A DNA stretch of 62,461 nucleotides from Candidatus Saccharimonadota bacterium. Its GTDB lineage: Bacteria; Patescibacteriota; Saccharimonadia; Saccharimonadales; Saccharimonadaceae. This document shows, one piece after another, positions 5,364 to 21,132 of the stretch (its first letter is position 1; each line of letters begins with the position of its first letter). A program made the translations under genes and the position numbers. Location of the stretch: contig WRLL01000004.1 of NCBI GenBank assembly GCA_009777625.1, positions 1-62,461 of the forward strand, written 5' to 3'. Under the pieces are notes generated by a model that worked only from the letters and a program-made list of their open reading frames with translations, was not told the DNA's origin and did not search any database.

Positions 5364-6702
5364 CGGTGGGCATGTCACGCCGATTGTGGCGGTTGTGGAA
5401 GAATTACGCCACGCGTCATTCGCCGACTTGATCGGCGAATCCAGTGAAAGGCTACCAGAAGCTCCTTCCGCCCCACATCCATACAATTTTCGCGCTGAAG
5501 AATCATCGTCTAAAATCCGGAACCAGATTTCGACAGGCTCATCGAACCCGGATTTAAATCACGATGATTCTTCCGGAAAATCGGAGGATGCGGAACGTAA
5601 AGGAGTTTCTTCGCAAATTGACAATACGAGTAATCTCAACATTCGAATCTGGACCGATAAAAAATTCGCCACACAAACACGCGGGTTAGTCGACAATCAA
5701 ACGCGCGTTGATGTCATTGCCAGCGGAAAACTGCGGCGTTACGCAAACCTAACTTTCTGGCACAAATGGTTCAGTTGGTATCATTTGACGAAAACGCACT
5801 TACCGAACTTGATTGATCTCTTCAAGATTGTTAGCGGGTTTTTCCAAAGTCTAGTGAAATTGATAATATGGCGGCCCGATGTAGTCTTCGCAAAGGGTGG
5901 CTACGTTTGTTTGCCGGTCGGCGTTGCGGCTCATGTTCTGCGAATTCCGTTGGTGATTCACGATAGCGATTCTGTGCCTGGGCTGACCAACCGGATTTTA
6001 GCACGTTGGGCAGCGGCGATTGGTACGGGTTCGCCGGTCGAAAATTACCCATCTTATCCGAAGAAGAAAACGAAATTTGTCGGCATTCCGGTGCGGCCAG
6101 AAATTAAGAAACTAAGTGTTGGAGAAAAGCGTCAAACCAAAAAGAGTTTGAATCTTGACCCGAAAAAAGAACTAGTTTTCGTGATGGGCGGCGGCGGCGG
6201 CGCGCAGATTTTCACTGACACTTTTCAAAGAATCGCGCCAGAAATTGTTCAGCAAAATGCACAGATAGTACTGTCGACCGGCAAAGGCAAGAACTTCACG
6301 CCAGATAAAAATATTACCAAAGATTTCTTTGTCTACGAATTTCTTACCGACAAATACGCATTGACTATGAATGCTTGCGATATTTTTGTTACACGGGCGG
6401 GCGTGACTGGCTTGGCCGAGGCGGCGACAGTTGGCGTACCGACTATTATCGTACCTAGTCCATATTTGTCGAGCGATCATCAGACAAAGAACGCAGCTGT
6501 TTATGAAAAGGCTGACGCGGCGATCGTGCTTAATCAATTTGATTTGGAAAAGGATCCGGAAATTTTGACGCAAGCGATCGGCAACATTTTGCATGACACG
6601 AAACTGCGTGATAAACTAAGACGGAATATTCCAAAGTTTGCCAAACCCGATGCGCTACATGACATGGTGAAAATGATTCTGGAGGCGGCGAAAAAATCAT
6701 GA
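5335..6702 (+). CDS. murG: UDP-GlcNAc transferase MurG with an in-frame insertion
   Basis: Converts lipid I to lipid II on the inner membrane face. The start at 5335 follows AAGGAGG and overlaps ftsW. The N-terminal GGGSGGH motif (about 7-13), the second-domain glycine loop (VMGGGGGAQ) and the donor-site stretch (GVPTIIVPSP, then DHQTKNA) are all present. At 455 residues it is about 100 longer than usual. The excess is at about residues 26-97, right after the first Rossmann strand-helix, and is Ser/Glu/Asn-rich and encoded by two palindromic elements (see 5410-5625). Catalytic motifs on both sides are intact, so the enzyme is probably active with a surface loop. Confidence 0.92.
   Translation: MRILCVGGGSGGHVTPIVAVVEELRHASFADLIGESSERLPEAPSAPHPYNFRAEESSSKIRNQISTGSSNPDLNHDDSSGKSEDAERKGVSSQIDNTSNLNIRIWTDKKFATQTRGLVDNQTRVDVIASGKLRRYANLTFWHKWFSWYHLTKTHLPNLIDLFKIVSGFFQSLVKLIIWRPDVVFAKGGYVCLPVGVAAHVLRIPLVIHDSDSVPGLTNRILARWAAAIGTGSPVENYPSYPKKKTKFVGIPVRPEIKKLSVGEKRQTKKSLNLDPKKELVFVMGGGGGAQIFTDTFQRIAPEIVQQNAQIVLSTGKGKNFTPDKNITKDFFVYEFLTDKYALTMNACDIFVTRAGVTGLAEAATVGVPTIIVPSPYLSSDHQTKNAAVYEKADAAIVLNQFDLEKDPEILTQAIGNILHDTKLRDKLRRNIPKFAKPDALHDMVKMILEAAKKS
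5410..5625. repeat. Palindromic in-frame insertion in murG
   Basis: Two inverted repeats lie inside the coding sequence: ATTCGCCGA/TCGGCGAAT (418-426 with 432-440, all +5000), and a long one pairing 5497-5509 with 5561-5573 (13 bp), enclosing 5513-5520 with 5548-5555. The first closely matches, in reverse complement, a palindrome inside topA at about 36390-36417. The translated peptides also match (ASFADLIGESS here, ASFASLSGESS in topA). Confidence 0.75.
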
Positions 6703-7454
6703 AAAACATTATCGAGGTAGAAAATTTGTCAAAAAAATACGGCGACAAAATTGCGGTTGACAGCATCAGTTTCACTGTGAAAAAGGGCGAAGTCTTTGGC
6801 ATCCTCGGCCCGAACGGCGCCGGCAAAACCACCACGATGGAGATGATGGAAGCCATGCGACCGATCGACAGCGGCAGCGTTTTAATCGACGGCATCGACG
6901 TGGCGAAACATCCGAACAAAATCAAGAAAATCGTCGGCGTGCAATTGCAATCCAGCGCGTTTTACGACAAAGTTACACTAATCGATTCGCTGAAAATGTT
7001 CGCCAGCTTTTACGGCCAAAAAGTCGACCCGATGGAATTGTTGGAAGAAGTCAATTTGATCGAAAAGGCCCGCGCTTTCCCCGAGAAACTTTCCGGCGGC
7101 CAACGGCAAAGATTCTCTATCGCCACGGCGCTGGTCAATCGCCCGAAAGTCCTTTTCCTGGACGAGCCGACGACTGGGCTGGACCCGCAGGCGCGGCGCA
7201 ACATGTGGGAATTGATCGAACAGATCAAGGCGAAACATATCACGGTGATTTTGACTTCGCATTACATGGAGGAAGCGCAGCGATTGTGCGACCGGCTGGC
7301 TATAATGGATGAAGGCAAAATCATCGCGCTGGATTCGCCCGACAAAATGATTAAGGACTTACTGGGCCGCGGTTTCAAGCCGAAAAGAACGATCGAGCAG
7401 GCTGATTTGGAGGACGTTTATATTGATCTCACCGGAAAGGAATTGCGGGAATGA
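6699..7454 (+). CDS. ABC transporter ATPase, drug/polysaccharide exporter (DrrA) type
   Basis: The 251-residue nucleotide-binding subunit has Walker A GPNGAGKTT near residue 38, the signature LSGGQRQR near 135, Walker B VLFLDEP, and an H-loop TSHYMEE. The start overlaps the murG stop (ATGA). It drives the ABC-2 permease two genes downstream (8095-9309). The intervening HD hydrolase shares 4-base overlaps with both, so all are co-translated. Substrate is unknown; linkage to the cell-wall cluster suggests an envelope precursor or an exported peptide. Confidence 0.88.
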   Translation: MKNIIEVENLSKKYGDKIAVDSISFTVKKGEVFGILGPNGAGKTTTMEMMEAMRPIDSGSVLIDGIDVAKHPNKIKKIVGVQLQSSAFYDKVTLIDSLKMFASFYGQKVDPMELLEEVNLIEKARAFPEKLSGGQRQRFSIATALVNRPKVLFLDEPTTGLDPQARRNMWELIEQIKAKHITVILTSHYMEEAQRLCDRLAIMDEGKIIALDSPDKMIKDLLGRGFKPKRTIEQADLEDVYIDLTGKELRE

Positions 7455-8098
7455 GTGAAAACAAAACTCGTTCAATTTTGGATTTCTACGTACTGATGGA
7501 CAAGCTGAAAACGACGATTCGCACGGGCTGGAAAATTTGGCAAATCTCGGCGCCACGTATCGAAAGCGTCGCAGAGCATGTCTTCGGTTGTCAGATGCTA
7601 GCGCTGGCGATTATTTCTGAATACGAATTGGAACTTGATTTAGAAAAGGTCATTCTGATGTTGGCGGTTCACGAAGTTGGCGAGGCGGCGGTTGGCGACA
7701 TCACGCCGTGGGATGGCATGTCGAAAAACGAAAAGATCGAGATAGAATCCGACGCGGTGAAGAAAATCATGTGCGGGCTGAAACGCGGCGATGAGATCGA
7801 ACAAATTTACTTAGAATTTGAAAAGGGTGAGTCGGCCGAAGCGCGATTTTGCAAGCAAGTCGATAAACTCGAAGCGTGCTTGCAGGTGAAAATTTACGAC
7901 GAAGAAGGCTACGCGAATTTTGACCAGATAAAATCTGGCGCATTGGAAATTCGGCGTAAAGAAATGTTGGAAAAAGGAAATGAGACTTTATCTTCGGCCT
8001 GGATTGAAAACGATATTGATATCGGAAAGATTTTTGACAAAGAATTATTGGAGATTACGAACTATGCCAAAGACAATAATATAAAGGAGCGCGAATGA
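7451..8098 (+). CDS. HD-domain hydrolase (YfbR/HDDC2-like)
   Basis: The 215-residue protein has the HD metal-binding pattern: H43 in VAEH, H74-E75 with D83 in HEVGEAAVGD, and a later Asp in KQVDKLEA (about 138). This spacing fits HD_3 family 5'-nucleotidases that act on deoxynucleoside monophosphates. It is sandwiched between the two subunits of an ABC exporter with ATGA overlaps at both ends, so its expression is tied to the transporter. No functional link is evident and it may simply be an operon passenger. Confidence 0.75.
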   Translation: MSENKTRSILDFYVLMDKLKTTIRTGWKIWQISAPRIESVAEHVFGCQMLALAIISEYELELDLEKVILMLAVHEVGEAAVGDITPWDGMSKNEKIEIESDAVKKIMCGLKRGDEIEQIYLEFEKGESAEARFCKQVDKLEACLQVKIYDEEGYANFDQIKSGALEIRRKEMLEKGNETLSSAWIENDIDIGKIFDKELLEITNYAKDNNIKERE

Positions 8099-9309
8099 AA
8101 GCGATCCTAACCTACGCCTGGATAATGCTCAAGCGCTTCATGCGCGACCCAGTTTACCTGTTTTTCATGTTCGCTTTTCCGCTGATTTTCTTGTTCATCT
8201 TTGGCACGATTTTCGGCAATCAAAGCAGCGTTAATTTTAATATCGCGATAATCAATCACGCGGATAATGACTTCGCGAAAAGTTTCGTCGAGAAGTTTGA
8301 CAGCGACGAAAATGAGACTTTTACGGTCAACAAAGATGTGTCGAGTATGGACGAGGCTAAAACCAAAATGTCACGCGGCGAGCTGGATTCGATTATTGAG
8401 ATTCCAAAAGATTTTGGCAAAATTTCCGAAACGTGTCATCCTGAACTTGTTTCAGGATCTACAGAATACAACGTAGATTCTGGGCGAAGCGTTCGGAACG
8501 AACCACATCCGGCTACGCGCGGGTTTCAGAATGACAATAATATTAATTGCTTGCCATCGGGCCAGTTAAAAGTTTATTTCGACGAAGGTTCACCCCAGGC
8601 CGGCCAGACTGTCGCGACAATTATGTCCGGCATTTTGGACGAAATGAACGCCGGAATAACTGGGCAAAAACCGCTCTTCACAGTCGAGCAGAAATCTGCT
8701 GGCGAAGCGGGACTCAGTCAATTTGACTACACCTTTGCCGGACTGTTGTCGTACGTTTTGATGACGATGGGAATCTACGCGCTTTCCCAACAACTGCCCA
8801 GCGAAAAGAAAACCGGCAGCCTGCGCCGCATCAAAGCCACGCCGTTCAAGCCGTGGCAGCTGCTCACGTCGTTGGCGCTGGTCTATTTAGTTCTGACCTT
8901 TCTCTCGGCGATTTTGATGATCGTGGTCGGCATTTTGGTGTTCGACTTTCAGATGCGCGGGTCGTGGCTAGTACTGGCCACATTTGCAACCATTTCCACG
9001 CTGACGATGATCGGCTTTGGCGCGATTGTGGCCGGCGCGGCGCGCAATGAAAACCAAGCCACCATGGCGTCGCAGCTGATCGCTTTTCCGATGATGTTCC
9101 TGGGCGGCGTGTTCTTCCCGCGCTTTTTGATGCCGGATTGGTTGCAGAATATTACAGCTTGGATTCCGCTGACACCGGTTGGCGAGGGGGTACGATATAT
9201 TACAACAGAGGGCGCATCTCTGTTTGCTGTCTGGCCGCAACTTCTTATGATTATTGGCTGGGGATTGGTGGCGTATCTTATCGCTTTCAAAGTGTTCAAG
9301 TGGGAATAG
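8095..9309 (+). CDS. ABC-2 type exporter permease with a palindromic insertion
   Basis: Membrane subunit of 404 residues partnering the ATPase at 6699-7454. One membrane segment near residues 21-41 is followed by a large extracytoplasmic region and five to six C-terminal segments with the ABC-2 motif region (MTMGIYALSQQLPSEKKTG, then LGGVFFP). Residues about 112-153, in the extracytoplasmic part, come from an inserted palindromic repeat (peptide CHPELVSGS and following). The start overlaps the HD gene by four bases. Confidence 0.88.
   Translation: MKAILTYAWIMLKRFMRDPVYLFFMFAFPLIFLFIFGTIFGNQSSVNFNIAIINHADNDFAKSFVEKFDSDENETFTVNKDVSSMDEAKTKMSRGELDSIIEIPKDFGKISETCHPELVSGSTEYNVDSGRSVRNEPHPATRGFQNDNNINCLPSGQLKVYFDEGSPQAGQTVATIMSGILDEMNAGITGQKPLFTVEQKSAGEAGLSQFDYTFAGLLSYVLMTMGIYALSQQLPSEKKTGSLRRIKATPFKPWQLLTSLALVYLVLTFLSAILMIVVGILVFDFQMRGSWLVLATFATISTLTMIGFGAIVAGAARNENQATMASQLIAFPMMFLGGVFFPRFLMPDWLQNITAWIPLTPVGEGVRYITTEGASLFAVWPQLLMIIGWGLVAYLIAFKVFKWE
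8428..8553. repeat. Palindromic in-frame insertion in the ABC-2 permease
   Basis: ATCCTGAA-CTTGT-TTCAGGAT is a near-perfect palindrome around 8440-8460. The same core occurs twice in topA (about 35590 and 36300), but in the other reading orientation. Here it encodes HPELVSGS; in topA it encodes ILKQVQDD. Confidence 0.75.
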
Positions 9310-9347: not shown

Positions 9348-10367
9348 GTGCTAAAGTCCAACAAACAGAGAAGGGAACAACAAAAGGCGCGCGACTTTTC
9401 GCGTATGCGTTTTCAGAATTACCGTGGTGCGCCGTTGGGTAAGGGAAAGGGCAGGTCTAGAAGGGATCATGTGCAATATGAAGCTAAGGATGAGCCGCAG
9501 AAAGTTGAAGCTGGAGCAACAGAGGAGAAAATCGATCAGGAAGCGCCATCGTTCCAGTTCAATACGACGCTAAGTACTTTCCATGGCGAGACACGGGGCG
9601 AAAGAACCGAACGCCAGCGTGATCGTGATCGGCAACTGCGAAAGCGAAAACTTGGCATATTCTTCATTTCTGTGGGTGTTGTATTAGGATTGGTTATGAT
9701 GATCATGACACAATTTAGTGGTCGATTAACGACAGTGACTAGCAACGCGCCAAGCATGAATTCAGAATCAGCCGAAACCTATAAAGGTCTGGTCGAGGAA
9801 TACCTGACCAACTATCCGTTCGAGAGATTCAGTTTCGTGCGGCGCGACAAAGCTTTCAGTGAATTCGTCATTGAAAAAGCGCCAGAAATCTTAAAAATAA
9901 AAGTTTCGTCCAGCGGCATCGCCAGCAGCAAACTGGAATTGGAATTCCGTTCGTCCGTCGCGATGTGGACTAACGGAGCAATGACCAGCTATGTCGATGC
10001 CAGCGGCGTGGTGTTCGAGCGCAATCATTTCGCCGAACCCAGCGTGACGATTGCCGATAATAGTGGTCTGGCGCCGATCGACGGTGTGGCAGCGTCGGCG
10101 CGATTTTTGAGCTTTGTTGGGCAGGTAACGGCTGAGATTGCCAAAGCAAACGGCGGTACGGTCGACCGAGTTGTCATTCCGCGTGGCGCAGTTCGTTTTG
10201 TAGAGTTCTATCTGGCGGGACGCCCTTATCCGTTCAAGGCGCAAATTGATCGCGACCCAGTTTCGCAAGCGGCCGATATTATGGCCACGGCGCGATATTT
10301 GGACGAACACGGAATTGTGCCGAATTACGTTGATGTTCGGGTTGTCGGCAAAGGATTTTGGAAATAA
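9348..10367 (+). CDS. ftsQ: FtsQ/DivIB-like cell division protein
   Basis: Bitopic protein of 339 residues: a long basic cytoplasmic tail (about 1-100), one membrane segment near 105-125, and an extracytoplasmic domain of about 200 residues ending in YVDVRVVGKGFWK. That ending is typical of FtsQ, where the last strand binds FtsB/FtsL. It starts with GTG at 9348. No other start with a ribosome site is seen. Normally ftsQ lies directly after murG or a mur ligase; here an exporter operon has come between. The POTRA domain is not obvious by eye, so the name rests on architecture, C-terminal pattern and neighbourhood. Confidence 0.72.
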   Translation: MLKSNKQRREQQKARDFSRMRFQNYRGAPLGKGKGRSRRDHVQYEAKDEPQKVEAGATEEKIDQEAPSFQFNTTLSTFHGETRGERTERQRDRDRQLRKRKLGIFFISVGVVLGLVMMIMTQFSGRLTTVTSNAPSMNSESAETYKGLVEEYLTNYPFERFSFVRRDKAFSEFVIEKAPEILKIKVSSSGIASSKLELEFRSSVAMWTNGAMTSYVDASGVVFERNHFAEPSVTIADNSGLAPIDGVAASARFLSFVGQVTAEIAKANGGTVDRVVIPRGAVRFVEFYLAGRPYPFKAQIDRDPVSQAADIMATARYLDEHGIVPNYVDVRVVGKGFWK

Positions 10368-14116: not shown

Positions 14117-15736
14117 TTATTTGATCTCGACGTCTTCACCGAAAAGTTTCTTTAGCCGCGCGCGGATTGAGCCTGGATGGCGGCCAAATCCCTCTGTTAA
14201 TTCTTTAATCTTAGCTCCTTTCTTGAATAGTTTGGCGAGCTTTTCGTCATCGGCCTTGCTCCACGGCATGTAGGCGTTCGGATATGTTTCACGCATACGC
14301 GCCAATTTCTCCGCCCAGGCTTTGGATTTGTCGGATTTTTCGCCTGGTTCGGTGGACTTTTTCGACTTCTTTTTCTCTCGCTCTTCCCTTTTCTTTTTGT
14401 TTTTAAGAAGATCTGCAAATTTAGTTTTTGCTTCAGCACACAGTTTTTGAAATTCCTGATCCTTCTCAAGGACTTCGGGATGAATAAAGAAGGCCTTACT
14501 ATGTAGGCCGAGAATTGACAAGGAATCCAGCGATTTTACCCGCGACAAAGCCACATAACCCATACCCGGCTCAAAAACGTTTTTCAGATTGATTTTGGCC
14601 GCATCGAGCGTCATACCTTGAGATTTGTGAACCGTTATCGCATAGGCTGGCCGCAGCGGAATTTGCGTCAAGGACGCTTGTTTTCTATCGCCATCGCGCA
14701 TTTCCCACGATACTTCGCAAACCGTGATTTTCCGGCCGTTACGGAATTCGACGACCGGCTGGTTGAACGGCTCGGCGAATTTTATAATTGTCCCGATTGA
14801 ACCGTTGACGAAACCTTGCTCGGGATCGTTCTTTAGCGCCATGACCAGCGCGCCCTTTTTCAGGCGCAGGATTTCCGGCGCCAGGCAGGACTTTTTCATT
14901 CTTTCAACGTAATTTTCCGCGCCGGTGTGGGTCATTTCGAACTCCATGAAGTCGCCGGGCAATTCGTTCATTTTTCTATCGTTAATATAATCTATGTCGC
15001 GATTTGTCGTGTGGAGTTCAGTGATTTCCTGGTTATCGCTAAGGTTTGCATTATAACGCGCGGCGATTTTTTCGGCGTCTTTTCGCGTTATTTCTTTTCG
15101 GCGGATTTTGTTAAGAATGTCGAGGAAATCGTCGTCTGTTTGGCGGTGCTGCGATTCTAGGTAAAGAATTGTTGGGTTCAGGTCCTGCCAAGATTTTGCA
15201 TGGTAAGCAAACTCAGTTTTAGGATTTTGTGAAGAATCGTTGTTGTCAAAATCGTCGTCAATTCCATCATAATTTCGCGCGGCACTTTCGCGATTTTCTT
15301 TACGTGTGACGGGCGGCAACTGAAAAAAATCTCCGCTCAAGACGACTTGAATTCCACCAAATGGCACGTCGTTTTTCCGAATCATTCGGCAAACTTCGTC
15401 AACCAAATCCAGCCGATAATCGTGCAACATCGAAATCTCGTCGATAACTAAAATATCAGCTTTTTCGATTTTCTCGATCCGGCTCTTGGCTAGATTATCG
15501 AAAAATCGCCGCGGCAAGGAATCGAGCACGCCAATGCCCGACCAGCCGTGAATCGTGTTCCCGCCCAAATGCGTCGCAGCGATGCCGGTCGTCGCTGTGA
15601 CAGCGACTTTCTTTTTGGCTTGCTTGCTCAGGCGGATGAACTCGTTCAGTGTGTGTGTCTTGCCCGTGCCGGCTGCGCCAGTCAAGAAAGCGCTGTGGCC
15701 AGCGAGGAGGATTTCGAGGGCAAGGTCTTGGTCCAT
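14117..15736 (-). CDS. Pif1/RecD-like DNA helicase with a C-terminal HTH
   Basis: Superfamily 1 helicase of 539 residues. The start at 15736 follows AAGGAG; a longer frame lacks a ribosome site. Walker A GAAGTGKT is at 20-27, followed by TATTGIAA, DEISML (motif II), SQHRQ, and the C-terminal VHKSQGMT (motif V/VI region) and YVALSRVK. After about residue 430 come a Lys/Glu-rich linker and a short helix-turn-helix-like tail (GRHPGSIRARLKKLFG). Pif1-type helicases unwind replication and recombination intermediates. It follows the KAP/HNH/MazG operon on the same strand after a 100-base gap with its own TATAAT near 15802-15807, so membership in that unit is uncertain. Confidence 0.85.
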   Translation of the reverse strand: MDQDLALEILLAGHSAFLTGAAGTGKTHTLNEFIRLSKQAKKKVAVTATTGIAATHLGGNTIHGWSGIGVLDSLPRRFFDNLAKSRIEKIEKADILVIDEISMLHDYRLDLVDEVCRMIRKNDVPFGGIQVVLSGDFFQLPPVTRKENRESAARNYDGIDDDFDNNDSSQNPKTEFAYHAKSWQDLNPTILYLESQHRQTDDDFLDILNKIRRKEITRKDAEKIAARYNANLSDNQEITELHTTNRDIDYINDRKMNELPGDFMEFEMTHTGAENYVERMKKSCLAPEILRLKKGALVMALKNDPEQGFVNGSIGTIIKFAEPFNQPVVEFRNGRKITVCEVSWEMRDGDRKQASLTQIPLRPAYAITVHKSQGMTLDAAKINLKNVFEPGMGYVALSRVKSLDSLSILGLHSKAFFIHPEVLEKDQEFQKLCAEAKTKFADLLKNKKKREEREKKKSKKSTEPGEKSDKSKAWAEKLARMRETYPNAYMPWSKADDEKLAKLFKKGAKIKELTEGFGRHPGSIRARLKKLFGEDVEIK

Positions 15737-15837
15737 TAATTCCTGCTCCTTATTTGCCTTAAAGAAGTGGCGCAATGTAGTTTGTCAATACTGGCGGTAT
15801 TATTATAGTTATAGCCGCGATGTCTGATCCTATTCAT

Positions 15838-17277
15838 TTAATACATTAGCTTCCTATACTTATTGTCCAATATGACACTCACATCAAGAGTCGTAGGGGG
15901 TGGTGTATGTGAATAGGCAACCGTAGCATCTGCATAATCTTTTAGCTCAGTCTCATATTCCCTGCCATCTAACTCTTTAAAGGCAATGCTAATTTTTAAT
16001 CGGCTATGTTCTTCTAGCCATGATTTGGCGTTCTGGTCTATTGCCAATAAAAATATATCGCAAACCCTTGGCCTGAGCTTGCCGCTATTATTATAAAGAA
16101 TGTCTTTAATGCTGCTAATAATTGTGCTTGATAATTGAGTGCTAGATGACAATTCTTTCGTGGTGATATATCTCGATGAAACGCAAATTAGAGCAAGATA
16201 AACGTTTACGTTTGGATGATGCAATTGTAAATCATAAATCTCTCGAAAGATAAACTTCAAAGCTCGTATATTTAATATAGATTCGTTATCGCTTATCTCC
16301 ACTAATTGCCTGGCAATCTCGAGAAACTTTTTGTCATTATTGCCTAGATTATCCAATAATTTTTGCAAAGACTCCATATTCATTTTGTTTGGCAGCCAAC
16401 TGTTTATAACGTCATCGTAGATTTTTATTGATCGTCCAAGCTTGTTAATATTGAATGTCTGCAATGTGCCGACGGGCGGCTTCTTGGTAGATCCAAACGA
16501 CCCGGTATCCTGTGGACAAATTACTATTACAGCCTGCTTAAGTTTGTCATTCTGCAAGAATACGTGCAATGACTCTAAAAATCTTTCCCCGCCCTCTGTT
16601 CTGTCGACATCTTCAACTACCATAACGCACGTTCTCTTGTTGTGATTAATCGTGTCAATCAACTTTTTCTCGTATTGGAATGTTCTAGTTATGCTACTCT
16701 TTGTTTTTGGGAACAATGTCGTTATCCCAAGTAGTGCAGCTACAGTAAAGAACAATGGTATTGCATATATCATGAATGCACGCCAGAAATCAGTGCCCTT
16801 AAGGAGTTTCCAAAGCACAAAAGAGGCTACCCCGTATATGACAAGCAATGCGAGGAATCCTGCCAGACCTTTCAAAAACTGCATGGGCACTGGTGTGCCG
16901 TCGCGCCCGTCTATGTCATTAGCAATGTCCTGTTTTTCTTTCCCTGATATGTCTGATATCGAACTAATTATGAAGCTATCCCAAATCTGGGAATCATTTG
17001 AATACTGCCAGATATCGAAATTGACTGTAGATATATTCTTTAGACTCGTTGTTGCATCGTGCAAAACAACACTTTTACCACTACCAAATGCACCTAAGTA
17101 TGCTATTATTCTGGACTGCTTTTTGTCAGAATACAATTTAATGATTTCCGACATCCTCTTGCTTTCTCTAATTTGCTCGGTAGTTAAATTGAAACTCTCA
17201 AACTTGTCTGTCTCCGATAAATATTCCGGTTTTGTAAAAACTGGAACGACCTTCTTTTTGTTAGATTTAGCGTTCAT
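15838..17277 (-). CDS. KAP-family membrane P-loop NTPase
   Basis: KAP proteins (named for Kidins220/ARMS and the F-plasmid phage-exclusion protein PifA) are membrane-tethered P-loop NTPases. This one has 479 residues: Walker A GAFGSGKS (62-69), two membrane helices inserted in the NTPase domain (about 137-158 and 166-188), and Walker B VVEDVDR (220-226). The inserted helices after Walker A are a KAP hallmark. Its ATG overlaps the stop of the EVE-HNH gene (TAATG), so the two are translationally coupled. The context argues for an antiphage role; the NTPase could trigger membrane damage or gate the nuclease. Base composition is lower in GC than in flanking housekeeping genes. Confidence 0.82.
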   Translation of the reverse strand: MNAKSNKKKVVPVFTKPEYLSETDKFESFNLTTEQIRESKRMSEIIKLYSDKKQSRIIAYLGAFGSGKSVVLHDATTSLKNISTVNFDIWQYSNDSQIWDSFIISSISDISGKEKQDIANDIDGRDGTPVPMQFLKGLAGFLALLVIYGVASFVLWKLLKGTDFWRAFMIYAIPLFFTVAALLGITTLFPKTKSSITRTFQYEKKLIDTINHNKRTCVMVVEDVDRTEGGERFLESLHVFLQNDKLKQAVIVICPQDTGSFGSTKKPPVGTLQTFNINKLGRSIKIYDDVINSWLPNKMNMESLQKLLDNLGNNDKKFLEIARQLVEISDNESILNIRALKFIFREIYDLQLHHPNVNVYLALICVSSRYITTKELSSSTQLSSTIISSIKDILYNNSGKLRPRVCDIFLLAIDQNAKSWLEEHSRLKISIAFKELDGREYETELKDYADATVAYSHTPPPTTLDVSVILDNKYRKLMY

Positions 17278-18272
17278 TATTCTTGCCACCCCAAATGCCC
17301 ATCTCGTATACTAACGACCTCACCGTCCTGAGTAACAACCCGCCGCACCGGATCGATCACTATCACCCCGCGGGTCTTCTTGGCATGGCAATTTGGACAT
17401 AGCGCCCACAAATTCCCTGCCTCCTCGGTGCCGCCTTTGTTTTTATCTATGATGTGATCGACTTCGATTATCCACCCTTTGCGGCCATTCTTTCGGACAT
17501 ATTCGCAGTAGAAACCGCAAACTTGGCAGGTATGATCTTGGAGCCGGGCGATGCGCCTTTTCTGGACCTCGTTATCGATGCGGATTTTGCTGATGCCGGC
17601 TCGCCTGGCGTAACCTTCTTTTGTTTGCTTGAATTCCACGGCCTTTTTCTTAACAACGTCGATGCTTTCCTCAGCGATTTGCGGATCGTATATGTCACCA
17701 ATTTCTTCGGCGATTTCCATGTCGTCGGCATCGCCGGAAAACGAGAAAAGTTCTTTTCGGTCGGTCAGGATTATTTCTTCGTAGATCGGATTTACTCTGG
17801 ACGATGAACCGTTAATCGGAAAACCTGGCACGTTTGGATCGCGTTCTTTTGCCATTCGATTCAACCTGGAAAGCGGGATCCCACTGGCCGACAGAATTTG
17901 CACTTCGGTGTCCAGCTGCTTGCGGCTCTTTCCCATGTTGTCTTTGTTAAATTCTATCCTGGGCATGTCGTTGAACAAAAGAATCTGATCAAATTTAAAG
18001 GCGTACGGCCACATGATTTCGCCCGAGGCTTTTTCCTGCATCCACGTTGGGTCATTTGTTATCCACTTTTTGTTAGAAATGCGGGCATAACCAATCACGG
18101 CCGAAACGGTTTTACTTCGGCCGTAGTCGGATTTGCTGGTGGAGTGTAACAAGGCGATGTCGCCGGGTTCGAGCTTGTCCCAAATACCTTTGTTCTTTTC
18201 GTTCAGCGCCCACATGTTCAGGCCGATGCCGGTTATCCAGTTTTCGGGCAAGCCGGTGAATCTGTAAATCAT
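17277..18272 (-). CDS. EVE/PUA-like domain fused to an HNH endonuclease
   Basis: The 331-residue protein joins an N-terminal EVE/PUA-like fold (about 1-105; WITGIGLNMWAL, then LEPGDIALLHST, VIGYARI, MWPYAFKF) to a C-terminal HNH nuclease (about 245-300). The HNH has zinc ligands C249/C252 and C292/C295, the catalytic EVDH (270-273), and H296. EVE and related PUA-fold domains bind modified cytosine, and EVE/SRA/ASCH-HNH fusions are modification-dependent restriction enzymes. I therefore infer type IV-like restriction of modified DNA. I start it at 18272, after GGAG and two bases past the MazG stop. The N-terminal fold call is from pattern only. Confidence 0.78.
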   Translation of the reverse strand: MIYRFTGLPENWITGIGLNMWALNEKNKGIWDKLEPGDIALLHSTSKSDYGRSKTVSAVIGYARISNKKWITNDPTWMQEKASGEIMWPYAFKFDQILLFNDMPRIEFNKDNMGKSRKQLDTEVQILSASGIPLSRLNRMAKERDPNVPGFPINGSSSRVNPIYEEIILTDRKELFSFSGDADDMEIAEEIGDIYDPQIAEESIDVVKKKAVEFKQTKEGYARRAGISKIRIDNEVQKRRIARLQDHTCQVCGFYCEYVRKNGRKGWIIEVDHIIDKNKGGTEEAGNLWALCPNCHAKKTRGVIVIDPVRRVVTQDGEVVSIRDGHLGWQE

Positions 18273-18273
18273 A

Positions 18274-18627
18274 CTATAGCTCCGTGTATTTCTTGTGATT
18301 GCCTTTGGCCTTTTTGACATCGTATTTGGCATGGTTTTTGGCCAGTTTGCGCAGGCTGGCTTCGTACAGGTCGATGTCCAGATCGTTGGCGATCAGCAGC
18401 ACCCAATACAGCACATCGGCCAGTTCGTCCGAGACGTCTTCCTTTTTCTTGCAGACGTGTTCGGTGCATTCTTCGCAGTTTTTCCATTGAAAATGTTCAA
18501 GGAATTCGGTCGCTTCCAGGACGAGCGAAATCGCCGAATCCTTGGGATTATGAAATTGCTTCCAATCGCGTTCATCGCGGAATTCGATTATCTTCTTTTG
18601 CAGATCACTCAATGGGTCTTTTGACAT
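18274..18627 (-). CDS. MazG-like nucleotide pyrophosphohydrolase (RS21-C6/dCTPase type)
   Basis: All-alpha NTP pyrophosphatase of 117 residues. Metal ligands E38-xx-E41 and E68-xx-D71 match the MazG superfamily, and the N-terminal run ERDWKQFHNPKDSA is typical of the RS21-C6 (DCTPP1) branch, which hydrolyses dCTP and its 5-modified forms. It is the first gene of the operon with the EVE-HNH nuclease and KAP NTPase. A modified-dCTP pyrophosphatase beside a modified-DNA nuclease makes functional sense against phages with modified cytosine, or as self-protection. A TATAAT six bases before ATG 18627 implies a leaderless message. Confidence 0.85.
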   Translation of the reverse strand: MSKDPLSDLQKKIIEFRDERDWKQFHNPKDSAISLVLEATEFLEHFQWKNCEECTEHVCKKKEDVSDELADVLYWVLLIANDLDIDLYEASLRKLAKNHAKYDVKKAKGNHKKYTEL

Positions 18628-18633
18628 ATGTTA

Positions 18634-18639
18634 ATTATA
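18634..18639 (-). promoter_or_regulatory. -10 box of the MazG/EVE-HNH/KAP operon
   Basis: On the minus strand TGATATAAT (extended -10) is followed by six bases and the ATG of the MazG-like gene. The intergenic space to the divergent DUF1905 gene is only 55 bases, so the two promoters may influence each other. Confidence 0.55.
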
Positions 18640-18682
18640 TCATAGAGTATGGTATTATATTGGTCAAAGAAAGGCGCGATCA

Positions 18683-18976
18683 ATGAATCCAAAAACATAC
18701 AAATTCAAGGCCATCATCCAAAAAGTCCCCGACCAAGACGGCGCCTATATTGCTGTCCCCTTTGACATTAGAAAAGAATTCGGCCGGAGGCGCGTTGCCG
18801 TCCACGCCACGTTTGACGGCGAGCCGTATGATGGCAGCATCGTCAACATGGGAATCAAAAATCCTGACGGTTCTATCTGTTATATTATCGGAGTTCTGAA
18901 AAGTATACGCGCCAGTATCGGCAAGCAAGCTGGCGATAATATCCAGGTAACCGTAAAAGAAAGGAAAAGAAAATGA
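18683..18976 (+). CDS. DUF1905 domain protein
   Basis: The 97-residue protein matches the DUF1905 pattern: a beta-barrel beginning YKFKAIIQKVPDQDGAYIAVP, the FGRRRVAVHATFDG turn, and a final IGKQAGDNIQVTV. Biochemical function is unknown. It overlaps the downstream DUF1801 gene by four bases, a pairing seen in other bacteria where both domains are sometimes fused. It is divergent from the putative defence operon. Confidence 0.82.
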   Translation: MNPKTYKFKAIIQKVPDQDGAYIAVPFDIRKEFGRRRVAVHATFDGEPYDGSIVNMGIKNPDGSICYIIGVLKSIRASIGKQAGDNIQVTVKERKRK

Positions 18977-19335
18977 AATCACCAATCGACGAATATATCG
19001 CTGCGCAGGACAAGAAAATCCAGCCGATTTTGAAAAAGGTCCGCGAAACGATTGCGACGGCTGCGCCGGATGCTACAGAAAAAATCGCCTGGCGGATGCC
19101 GACGTTTTGGCAAGGCGAAAACCTGATTCACTTTGCGGCGTTCAAAAACCATCTCGGGATTTATCCAGGCGATTTGTCGTTGGCGCCCTTCAAAGATCGG
19201 CTGGTCGGCCTTCACACGACCAAAGGCGCGATTCAGTTTCCGTATGATCAGACGATTGATTATGATTTGATTGCTTACATCACGCGGTGGCGGCTGAAGG
19301 TGATTGAGAATAAGCAAAAGCAAACAAAGAAATGA
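18973..19335 (+). CDS. DUF1801/YdhG-like protein
   Basis: The 120-residue product matches the DUF1801 (YdhG, SufE-like fold) family: IDEYIAAQDKKIQPILKKVR, then WRMPTFW, LIHFAAFKNHLGIYPG, and TKGAIQFPYDQTID. Members are called iron-chaperone-like on weak evidence. The ATG overlaps the DUF1905 stop, so the two are co-translated. Confidence 0.85.
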   Translation: MKSPIDEYIAAQDKKIQPILKKVRETIATAAPDATEKIAWRMPTFWQGENLIHFAAFKNHLGIYPGDLSLAPFKDRLVGLHTTKGAIQFPYDQTIDYDLIAYITRWRLKVIENKQKQTKK

Positions 19336-19465: not shown

Positions 19466-19693
19466 ATGAGTTCATGTCATCATCTCACCAGTACGGAGAC
19501 AGCGCTGCTCGTCGTACTGATCGTTTGGGCGCTGTTTTGGAAGGGCCTTGCGCTATGGCATGCCGCCCGCAAGAAGCAACCATGGTGGTACGTCATAATG
19601 ATAGTGGTTAATACAGCCGGACTTTTGGAAATTATATATCTATTCGGCGTGCGGAAGATCAAGCCGGGCAAACTGTTTTCAAGCAAGATCTAG
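19466..19693 (+). CDS. DUF5652 small membrane protein
   Basis: The 75-residue protein has two membrane helices, with the family-typical WWYVIMIVVNTAGLLEIIYLF in the second half and a short basic tail. DUF5652 is common in Saccharibacteria and other Patescibacteria; function unknown. I start it at 19466, after GGGAGGGAG. Its last four bases overlap the end of the convergent gene at 19690. Confidence 0.75.
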   Translation: MSSCHHLTSTETALLVVLIVWALFWKGLALWHAARKKQPWWYVIMIVVNTAGLLEIIYLFGVRKIKPGKLFSSKI

Positions 19694-20145
19694 TTACGTG
19701 ATGCCTGTCCCCCTTCACACATATCCCAGACTTCATCCTGAATGACAGAGAAAATATCTTTGACGGCCGAAGCTAATGTGTAGTATTTTCCACCTTCGTA
19801 TTTTTCGGTGTGGAGGATTTTTGAGTCGGATTCTTTACCGCATTGGAAGGAGATGCGGATGATCAGTTCGCTGCGATCAACGCTCTGGGCGACGTCAATG
19901 TCAGTCAGTTTGAAGTTGGCTGGTTTGAAATAGAAGCCGACGGACATAACGTTGTCGCGGATGTTGGTCGAGTCGTCAAGCAGGCCTTTTTTGTCAGTGA
20001 AATAATAGCGGCCGAGTTCGCGCAAGGTCCACATGGCCAGGACTTGTTGTTCGACTCGGCTGATGTAGTTGGTCAGTTGTTCATAAATCGAATTTGATTT
20101 AGCGTTCGATTGTCGCAAGGCCATTCTTAAATCCGCGTCTGACAT
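19690..20145 (-). CDS. Hypothetical protein paired with an antitoxin-like gene
   Basis: The 151-residue protein is not from a family I recognise. It has an N-terminal helical half (YEQLTNYISRVEQQVLAMWTLRELG) and a C-terminal half with beta character (SVDRSELIIRISFQC). No membrane segment or signal is visible, and no RelE/YafQ catalytic pattern. GGAGG lies just upstream of ATG 20145, which is 18 bases after the stop of the ribbon-helix-helix gene, so the two form an operon. It might be an unrecognised toxin or an unrelated passenger. Confidence 0.6.
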   Translation of the reverse strand: MSDADLRMALRQSNAKSNSIYEQLTNYISRVEQQVLAMWTLRELGRYYFTDKKGLLDDSTNIRDNVMSVGFYFKPANFKLTDIDVAQSVDRSELIIRISFQCGKESDSKILHTEKYEGGKYYTLASAVKDIFSVIQDEVWDMCEGGQASRN

Positions 20146-20163
20146 CCCACCTCCTTTGACATG

Positions 20164-20412
20164 CTAATTGTTGTAACGTTTGTATTCGCCGCGATGATAT
20201 TCGGCCCGGGCTTCTTCGACCAAGCTGGCGGTTTCCGGTTTGCTGGGACGAAAAGTGTAATTTTCTTCCTCTAGAAAATCGCGCAGAGCCTGCTGAACCA
20301 CTTGGCTGATGGTGATGCCCAGGTTGTCGGCCTTTTTCTGAGCGGCTAGTTTTAGACCGGGGTCGGCTTTGACGGTGATAATTACGGGCTTGATCACAGG
20401 TTTTTTGCTCAT
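20164..20412 (-). CDS. Ribbon-helix-helix antitoxin-like protein (RelB/DinJ type)
   Basis: The 82-residue product has an N-terminal beta strand VIITVKADPGLKLAAQKKADNLGITISQV and a helix giving the RHH DNA-binding fold, then an acidic disordered tail (SLVEEARAEYHRGEYKRY) of the kind that wraps a toxin. RelB/DinJ proteins neutralise RelE/YafQ RNases and repress their own operon. No recognisable RelE follows; the next gene is an unknown 151-residue protein. A promoter TTGACG-18-TAAACT ends six bases before the ATG, again predicting a leaderless mRNA. Confidence 0.72.
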   Translation of the reverse strand: MSKKPVIKPVIITVKADPGLKLAAQKKADNLGITISQVVQQALRDFLEEENYTFRPSKPETASLVEEARAEYHRGEYKRYNN

Positions 20413-20487: not shown

Positions 20488-21132
20488 CTATACGATGCTG
20501 CGAAACTCTTCTTTGGTCACAATTACATGATCGGTCAAAGTAATGCCGAGAAGTTTGCCCGATTCTGTCAGGCGCTGCGTAACTTCGTGGTCGGCCGGCG
20601 ACGGGGTCAGATCGCCCGACGGATGATTGTGGGCGACGATAATTGCCGCGGCGCGGTCGGTGATAGCTTCGGCGAAGACCTCACGCGGGTGGACCAGCGA
20701 CGCTGTCAGTGTGCCGATCGAAATTACGCGTTTGCTGATCAAACGATTTGCGCCGTCAAGCGTCAGTACAACGAAGTATTCTTGCTTTTTGTTGCGAATG
20801 TCGGTTAGTTGGTCGGCGACTTTATCCGGCGAATCTATGATTAAATTGTCAGGTTGAATTAGATGTCGTCGCGCCAGTTCAAACGCGGCCAACAGTTCGC
20901 TGATCTTTGCTTCGCCCAGGCCCGGAATTTGTTCAAGTTCCGCGCGCGGAATGTCGATGCCGTGTTTATTCAGCAGTCGTTTGATATTGCGCGAAATCTG
21001 CGTCACGTCATGGCCGCCGACGCCGCTGCCGATGATGGCCATCAACAGTTCAAGGTCGGACAAGACAGCCGCGCCGCGAGATTTCATTTTTTCGCGTGGT
21101 CGGTCAAGCGGGAGTTTGTCTTTGAATTTTAT
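20488..21132 (-). CDS. radC: RadC/JAB-domain DNA repair protein, unusual start
   Basis: The C-terminal MPN/JAB domain has the JAMM motif HNHPSGDLTPSPAD with an upstream catalytic Glu (VFAEAITDR). The N-terminal half carries the helix-hairpin-helix IPGLGEAKISELLAAFELARR. The first ATG is at 21087, but the conserved RadC opening (LPLDRPREK) is encoded just upstream in the same frame. The only start-like codon there is an ATA at 21132-21130, overlapping the secA stop as ATAA. I extend the gene to it with reservation; starting at 21087 gives 199 residues and loses the conserved opening. Role in repair is not well established for the family. Confidence 0.8.
   Translation of the reverse strand: MKFKDKLPLDRPREKMKSRGAAVLSDLELLMAIIGSGVGGHDVTQISRNIKRLLNKHGIDIPRAELEQIPGLGEAKISELLAAFELARRHLIQPDNLIIDSPDKVADQLTDIRNKKQEYFVVLTLDGANRLISKRVISIGTLTASLVHPREVFAEAITDRAAAIIVAHNHPSGDLTPSPADHEVTQRLTESGKLLGITLTDHVIVTKEEFRSIV

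Follow-up and report, generated by a model that had tools for sequence, protein, structure and literature searches.

A MazG-like pyrophosphohydrolase gene coupled to an EVE-HNH nuclease gene as a candidate mobile, modification-dependent restriction module

Why does a gene for a small MazG-like nucleotide pyrophosphohydrolase stand directly ahead of a gene for a predicted modification-dependent nuclease? The locus that raises this question lies in a 62,461-nt stretch of contig 4 of its host genome (902 kb, 83.5% complete), and the whole of this stretch is called the window below; the host's relatives have genomes of mostly about 0.5–1.2 Mb, and its phylum is candidate-phyla-radiation-like, as indicated by a Candidatus Peribacteria contig among its members. 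Type IV restriction enzymes lack a partner methyltransferase, and to our knowledge it has rarely been asked how their hosts avoid cutting themselves when modified nucleotides enter the pool. A coupled pyrophosphohydrolase, if it precedes nucleases of several unrelated types, would offer an answer that is both direct and testable.

Three open reading frames lie in tandem on the minus strand at 15838–18627, in the order MazG-like, EVE-HNH and KAP-like (Table 1). A first-pass annotation of the same DNA had reported that they are closely packed, and both junctions read as claimed: TAG-T-ATG between the MazG-like and EVE-HNH genes, and an overlapping TAATG between the EVE-HNH and KAP-like genes. 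The sigma-70-like matches upstream of the MazG-like gene are a possible operon promoter, for which the evidence is weak because this region is richer in such matches than shuffled sequence.

Table 1. Features of the locus, in positions of the window
Feature	Position	Strand	Basis or remark
MazG-like (dCTPP1-type) NTP pyrophosphohydrolase gene, 117 aa	18274..18627	(-)	PF12643, PDB dCTPP1; constant first gene of the module
Gene for an EVE-HNH fusion protein (331 aa), predicted to be a modification-dependent endonuclease	17277..18272	(-)	profile matches and full-length L006 homologue
EVE domain, about residues 1-135 of EVE-HNH	17868..18272	(-)	PRK00809, PH1033, hhalign
HNH nuclease domain, residues 249-301 of EVE-HNH	17370..17528	(-)	PF01844
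Divergent KAP-like P-loop NTPase, two membrane segments	15838..17277	(-)	Walker A, hydrophobic segments, Walker B
Overlapping pair of sigma-70-like promoter matches ahead of MazG	18639..18683	(-)	10/12 matches each

The first gene had been proposed to encode a dCTPase-type pyrophosphohydrolase, and the profile searches agree. In particular, the protein matches the Pfam family PF12643 (MazG-like, 9.3e-17) and dCTP pyrophosphatase 1 (dCTPP1) in the PDB (9.7e-18), and it keeps the acids of the ExxE...ExxD metal site (E38, E41, E68 and D71). A docking study assigns H38, W47, E63, E66, W73, E95, D98 and Y102 to the dCTPP1 pocket (PMC4491611), to which I13, W22, E38, E41, W48, E68, D71 and W75 of the window protein align, respectively. 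Within the cytosine pocket (H38, W47, W73 and Y102), both tryptophans are kept as W22 and W48, the tyrosine has become W75, and H38, which bonds the cytosine (PMC4491611), has become I13. The protein shares the family, the metal site and both pocket tryptophans with the house-cleaning dCTPP1 and MazG enzymes (PMC4491611, PMC3855555), from which it differs by the exchange of H38 for isoleucine and by its place in an operon with a nuclease. dCTPP1 favours dCTP along with 5-methyl-dCTP and 5-halo-dCTP, plain dCTP being hydrolyzed as well (PMC4491611), and a mycobacterial MazG removes 5-OH-dCTP (PMC3855555); a 5-modified dCTP is a plausible substrate of the window enzyme.

The HNH part of the second gene's product matches PF01844 (6.8e-10), and its residues C249, C252, D272, H273, N287, C292, N294, C295 and H296 are invariant in eight relatives. 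Its EVE part is more remote: single-sequence searches return PRK00809 weakly at residues 16–101 (1.3e-4) and, in the PDB, PH1033 (0.038), and PF01878 gives no match in the window protein itself and only a match below cut-off (0.0052) in the homologue at locus L006, which is full-length and 41–42% identical. Against the PDB, a profile of this part has two EVE structures as its only sensible matches (PH1033, 0.012, and another, 0.045), and it aligns with residues 80–248 of a haloarchaeal protein that carries an AAA_5 (McrB-like) domain behind them (hhalign 99.4%, E = 2.6e-21). T6 and E10 of the EVE part are invariant, with the same spacing as T11 and E15 in VcaM4I, a likeness by spacing and not by alignment; an AlphaFold2 model of the protein from two sequences has a mean pLDDT of 38.7. 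On these profile matches and conserved residues, the middle gene is an EVE-type modified-base reader fused to an HNH nuclease, much as first annotated, and its product probably cuts DNA carrying altered bases.

Enzymes of this kind have been described. Predicted type IV architectures include EVE-McrB, EVE-HNH and EVE-PD-(D/E)xK (PMC7641849), and VcaM4I is an EVE-HNH enzyme that flips out and binds 5mC and 5hmC (PMC7897488). The window protein has the same EVE-then-HNH order and the HNH residues, although the two EVE domains are only distantly similar; moreover, VcaM4I and like type IV enzymes were studied without a MazG partner, whereas the window gene is preceded by a coupled MazG gene, of which neither PMC7897488 nor the class survey (PMC7641849) makes mention. 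The EVE-McrB proteins of McrBC type IV systems provide the nearest profile of the window EVE domain, that of the haloarchaeal AAA_5 protein, but the window protein has no AAA motor and carries its nuclease fused to the reader. Among viral sequences, an IMG/VR scan with the EVE-HNH protein returned HNH relatives only, a scan with the EVE alignment found nothing, and a comparison of EVE-HNH with phage records gave no match. In Bacillota and Bacteroidota (L007–L016), this HNH module, with a D-N/G-HL(GW) tail at its C-terminus, occurs in fusion with various unassigned N-terminal domains, and some of these fusions adjoin restriction genes.

The third gene encodes 479 aa from an ATG at 17277, or 483 aa from an upstream GTG at 17289, and ends at 15838. 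Its Walker A motif (GAFGSGKS, residues 66–73), two hydrophobic segments within residues 133–195 and Walker B motif (VMVVEDVDR, residues 222–230) reproduce the layout of KAP NTPases including PifA, which are P-loop NTPases with two membrane segments between Walker A and Walker B. However, a PF07693 profile search of the whole genome gave no match, this gene included, and the PifA model reached only 0.011, below cut-off. Because the KAP layout is present and homologues do match PF07693 (2.8e-3 at L002, 1.3e-7 at L094 and 1.5e-9 at L095), the gene is, as far as motifs and homologues tell, a divergent KAP-like NTPase; of its earlier assignment to the PifA family, the layout stood and the profile relationship did not. 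An AlphaFold2 model from one sequence has a mean pLDDT of 37.7, and an IMG/VR scan with the protein found nothing.

If the three genes acted together, with the KAP NTPase working at the membrane in the manner of PifA-type exclusion, the TAATG overlap joining the second and third genes and the KAP layout of the third would be expected, and a third gene is present at other EVE loci too; for example, at L030 a 288-aa protein with a probable membrane segment and no Pfam match above cut-off is encoded by a gene that overlaps the EVE gene. Yet the third genes elsewhere are unrelated, the three other EVE-nuclease loci lack the KAP-like gene, and the genomes searched contain no second MazG/EVE-HNH/KAP trio. 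The base composition is also discordant, with a G+C content of 38.3% for the KAP-like gene compared to 47.2% for MazG, 49.4% for EVE-HNH and 50.2% for the mean open reading frame. A joint three-gene action is therefore very improbable, and the KAP-like gene, which the first-pass annotation had made part of the system, was rejected as a core component for its outlying composition and the lack of a second trio. Since, in addition, the homologues at L094 and L095 are accompanied by neither a MazG nor an EVE gene within the stretches examined (the L002 homologue lies at a contig end and is silent on upstream genes), the KAP-like gene is most likely a separately acquired, later neighbour of the module. 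The suggested search for a conserved neighbourhood thus found the trio adjacent only here, and the MazG/EVE-nuclease pair conserved.

This pair recurs at every EVE-nuclease locus found. Four such loci were present among 380 genomes of the host phylum, with no further locus in class-level EVE searches of 334 and 295 genomes (partly overlapping sets), and at all four a MazG gene lies directly upstream in the same direction; the window MazG is 59–61% identical to the other three. Behind the same EVE domain, the nuclease is HNH at two loci and PD-(D/E)xK-like at two, the latter assigned by weak Hjc matches (0.004–0.012) and an EVKS motif. At L006, a Candidatus Peribacteria contig (CALRGE010000006.1), the MazG/EVE-HNH pair stands alone in one integron-like cassette between two attC-like sites (about 7375–7487 and 9113–9206), whose identity is supported by their repeats, complementary ends and folding; the array adjoins an IntI/Xer-type integrase that scores 1.7e-60 with the integron integrase model, below its cut-off. 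Because this cassette holds exactly the MazG and EVE-HNH genes, it is good evidence that the two work as a pair. That MazG and EVE-nuclease genes form a conserved unit, probably a mobile defence module, is well supported by these loci.

The integron-like array at L006 (3981–15600) lies in a candidate-phyla-radiation genome; in it, a dozen small open reading frames on one strand, separated by attC-like sites, come after a tyrosine recombinase, and one of its cassettes is duplicated with 90% identity (5511–5810 and 9988–10287). Separately, at L029 (7584–9374) a UG13a-type defence-associated reverse transcriptase (7e-65) follows a MazG/EVE-PD-(D/E)xK pair.

MazG genes of this type are coupled to nucleases more widely than to EVE fusions. 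They occur in 40 of 287 genomes of the host phylum (E <= 1e-12). Thirty loci were inspected, and at 17 of them the gene directly downstream encodes a nuclease or a nuclease-helicase, comprising 4 EVE-nucleases, 5 GIY-YIG-like nucleases joined to SLFN-g3 (formerly DUF2075) helicases and 8 PD-(D/E)xK-like nucleases joined to SLFN-g3 helicases. The helicase parts were identified with certainty (1e-66 to 1e-104); the N-terminal PD-(D/E)xK and GIY-YIG parts were assigned by motif and weak Pfam matches. Among the closest 19 MazGs in the phylum, the fraction with such a gene directly downstream rises to 15 of 19, while distant MazG loci, used as an internal control, are among housekeeping genes. A reciprocal search of 16 relatives found one strong SLFN-g3 helicase (9e-107), and directly upstream of it, with a 4-base overlap, a 58% identical MazG. 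At L080 (3095–5257), one of the 8 PD-(D/E)xK-like cases, the nuclease N-terminus of a MazG-SLFN helicase locus is seemingly truncated or frameshifted, perhaps in a decaying copy.

In Bacillota, 17 of 269 genomes carry the MazG (E <= 1e-15), and a partner adjoins MazG at 7 of 18 loci, with the helicase first in two and an HNH fusion in two (L098 and L099). Further, a Priestia aryabhattai plasmid (L064, 1840–5746) encodes in a row MutT, an MrcB_N-HNH protein, MazG and an SLFN-g3 helicase, within a defence island and next to genes for a restriction endonuclease and a DNA methylase, and a Halalkalicoccus plasmid encodes MazG and then an SLFN helicase. The MazG tree, which has modest support owing to the small size of the protein, interleaves the partner types; L034 (EVE partner) and L037 (GIY-YIG partner), for instance, have MazGs that lie close together and partners that are unrelated. 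This interleaving indicates that MazG is the constant gene and that the nuclease is exchanged. With the pairing recurring across unrelated organisms and the nuclease exchanged, the defence role suggested from the window alone is upheld as probable. The N-terminal domains of the L098 (486–1460) and L099 (1871–2878) fusions are unnamed by Pfam and contain a W-G...GDkvl.Y.kG..yYG pattern, EVE/PUA-like by eye, so that they are possibly further modified-base readers.

Alternatively, this MazG could serve general housekeeping or repair and share defence islands with the nuclease without being functionally tied to it. Many genomes indeed carry MazG alone, partnerless copies include L086–L089, and RadC and PIF1-like genes recur nearby as well. 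A bystander of this kind is improbable, however, as the contact between MazG and nuclease is immediate and same-strand, with gaps mostly within -4 to +4 bases, in the host phylum as well as in Bacillota and one archaeon; the coupling is found from both search directions, starting from MazG or from the SLFN-g3 helicase; and one cassette holds just the MazG and EVE-HNH genes.

We consider it about an even chance (roughly 0.5) that MazG and EVE-HNH together make up a mobile restriction module of two genes, modification-dependent and thus type IV-like, in which MazG spares the host from its own nuclease. The EVE domain would read a modified base in foreign DNA, most likely a 5-modified cytosine, and the HNH domain would cut the DNA so marked. 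Cutting of hydroxymethylated or methylated foreign DNA would release modified monophosphates, and organisms that live by salvage may also take up foreign nucleotides; modified bases built into host DNA would then mark the host for its own nuclease. By hydrolyzing modified dCTP to the monophosphate, MazG would keep these bases out of the chromosome, a self-protection by metabolism that would be the counterpart of the methyltransferase in ordinary restriction-modification. Three of the MazG partner types have known or probable modified-cytosine readers, namely EVE with either of two nucleases and MrcB_N with HNH. MutT homologues occur near SauUSI-type enzymes in Streptococcus (PMC7641849), and by analogy these, together with the MutT of the Priestia locus, would fit a sanitizing role for MazG. 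In the Priestia locus, two nucleotide-pool enzymes (MutT and MazG) adjoin a type IV-like nuclease. Weighing against the self-protection reading are the isoleucine in place of the cytosine-bonding histidine, the MazG copies that have no partner, and the earlier work on VcaM4I and other known type IV enzymes, in which MazG had no part.

The same gene order and coupling would fit equally well if MazG were an anti-phage effector that depletes dCTP, or the modified dCTP of the phage, and the nuclease in turn attacked finished DNA, giving a double block. dCTPP1's activity on plain dCTP would suit such an effector (PMC4491611), and MazG is among the predicted, unvalidated defence domains (PMC13092281). 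Yet removal of modified dCTP would destroy the nuclease's own target, the MazG here is a small stand-alone catalytic domain, and its sequence gives no hint of regulation by infection, all of which make an effector role rather unlikely. The earlier suggestion that the system limits modified dCTP keeps its dCTPase-type enzyme, and its purpose is perhaps better described as host protection from the host's own nuclease than as an attack on phage. Extending the self-protection reading beyond EVE-HNH, we tentatively propose a restriction class that guards self by metabolism instead of DNA methylation, in which the pyrophosphohydrolase would license an adjacent modification-dependent nuclease of any of several architectures; this generalization is possible, and we hold it with less confidence than the two-gene module itself.

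EVE-HNH enzymes and MazG enzymes are each already known, and the new aspect is their pairing. PADLOC 2.0.0 gave the three genes single-domain matches to HNH restriction enzymes and a weak PDC-S20/PifA match for the KAP-like gene; none of its models matches MazG and no multi-gene model covers the set. Likewise, a literature search, with most subscription journals outside its reach, revealed no publication in which MazG is coupled to EVE, MrcB_N or SLFN nucleases, in line with the initial statement that no such system had been described. The PADLOC candidate PDC-S41, a PD-(D/E)xK and SLFN-g3/DUF2075 helicase protein, matches the PD-(D/E)xK/SLFN partners of MazG elsewhere (1e-15 to 1e-17), but it is listed as a single gene, whereas the partner genomes add MazG and the window has EVE-HNH instead. 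If the proposed self-protection is true, such single-gene candidates would often be half of a two-gene module, and the MazG domain listed by DefensePredictor, which cites Burroughs 2015 for nucleotide-centred conflict systems (PMC13092281), would gain a function. Bacteria with small genomes, which may rely on nucleotides that they scavenge, would likewise gain a defence system.

The module's surroundings in the window contain further genes of note. Genes for DUF1905 and DUF1801 proteins (18683–19335, 4-base overlap) diverge from MazG and start 56 bases away; beyond them, a gene with a weak RelB-like antitoxin match (0.0065) and a 151-aa open reading frame without a Pfam match (19690–20412) are a possible toxin-antitoxin pair. 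The module is also flanked by genes for a PIF1-like helicase (14117–15775) and RadC (20488–21087). One or both of these genes also lie a few kb from the MazG-nuclease loci L029, L076, L078, L079, L081 and L088, perhaps because the loci share an integration hotspot, or because these genes have an accessory role in repair.
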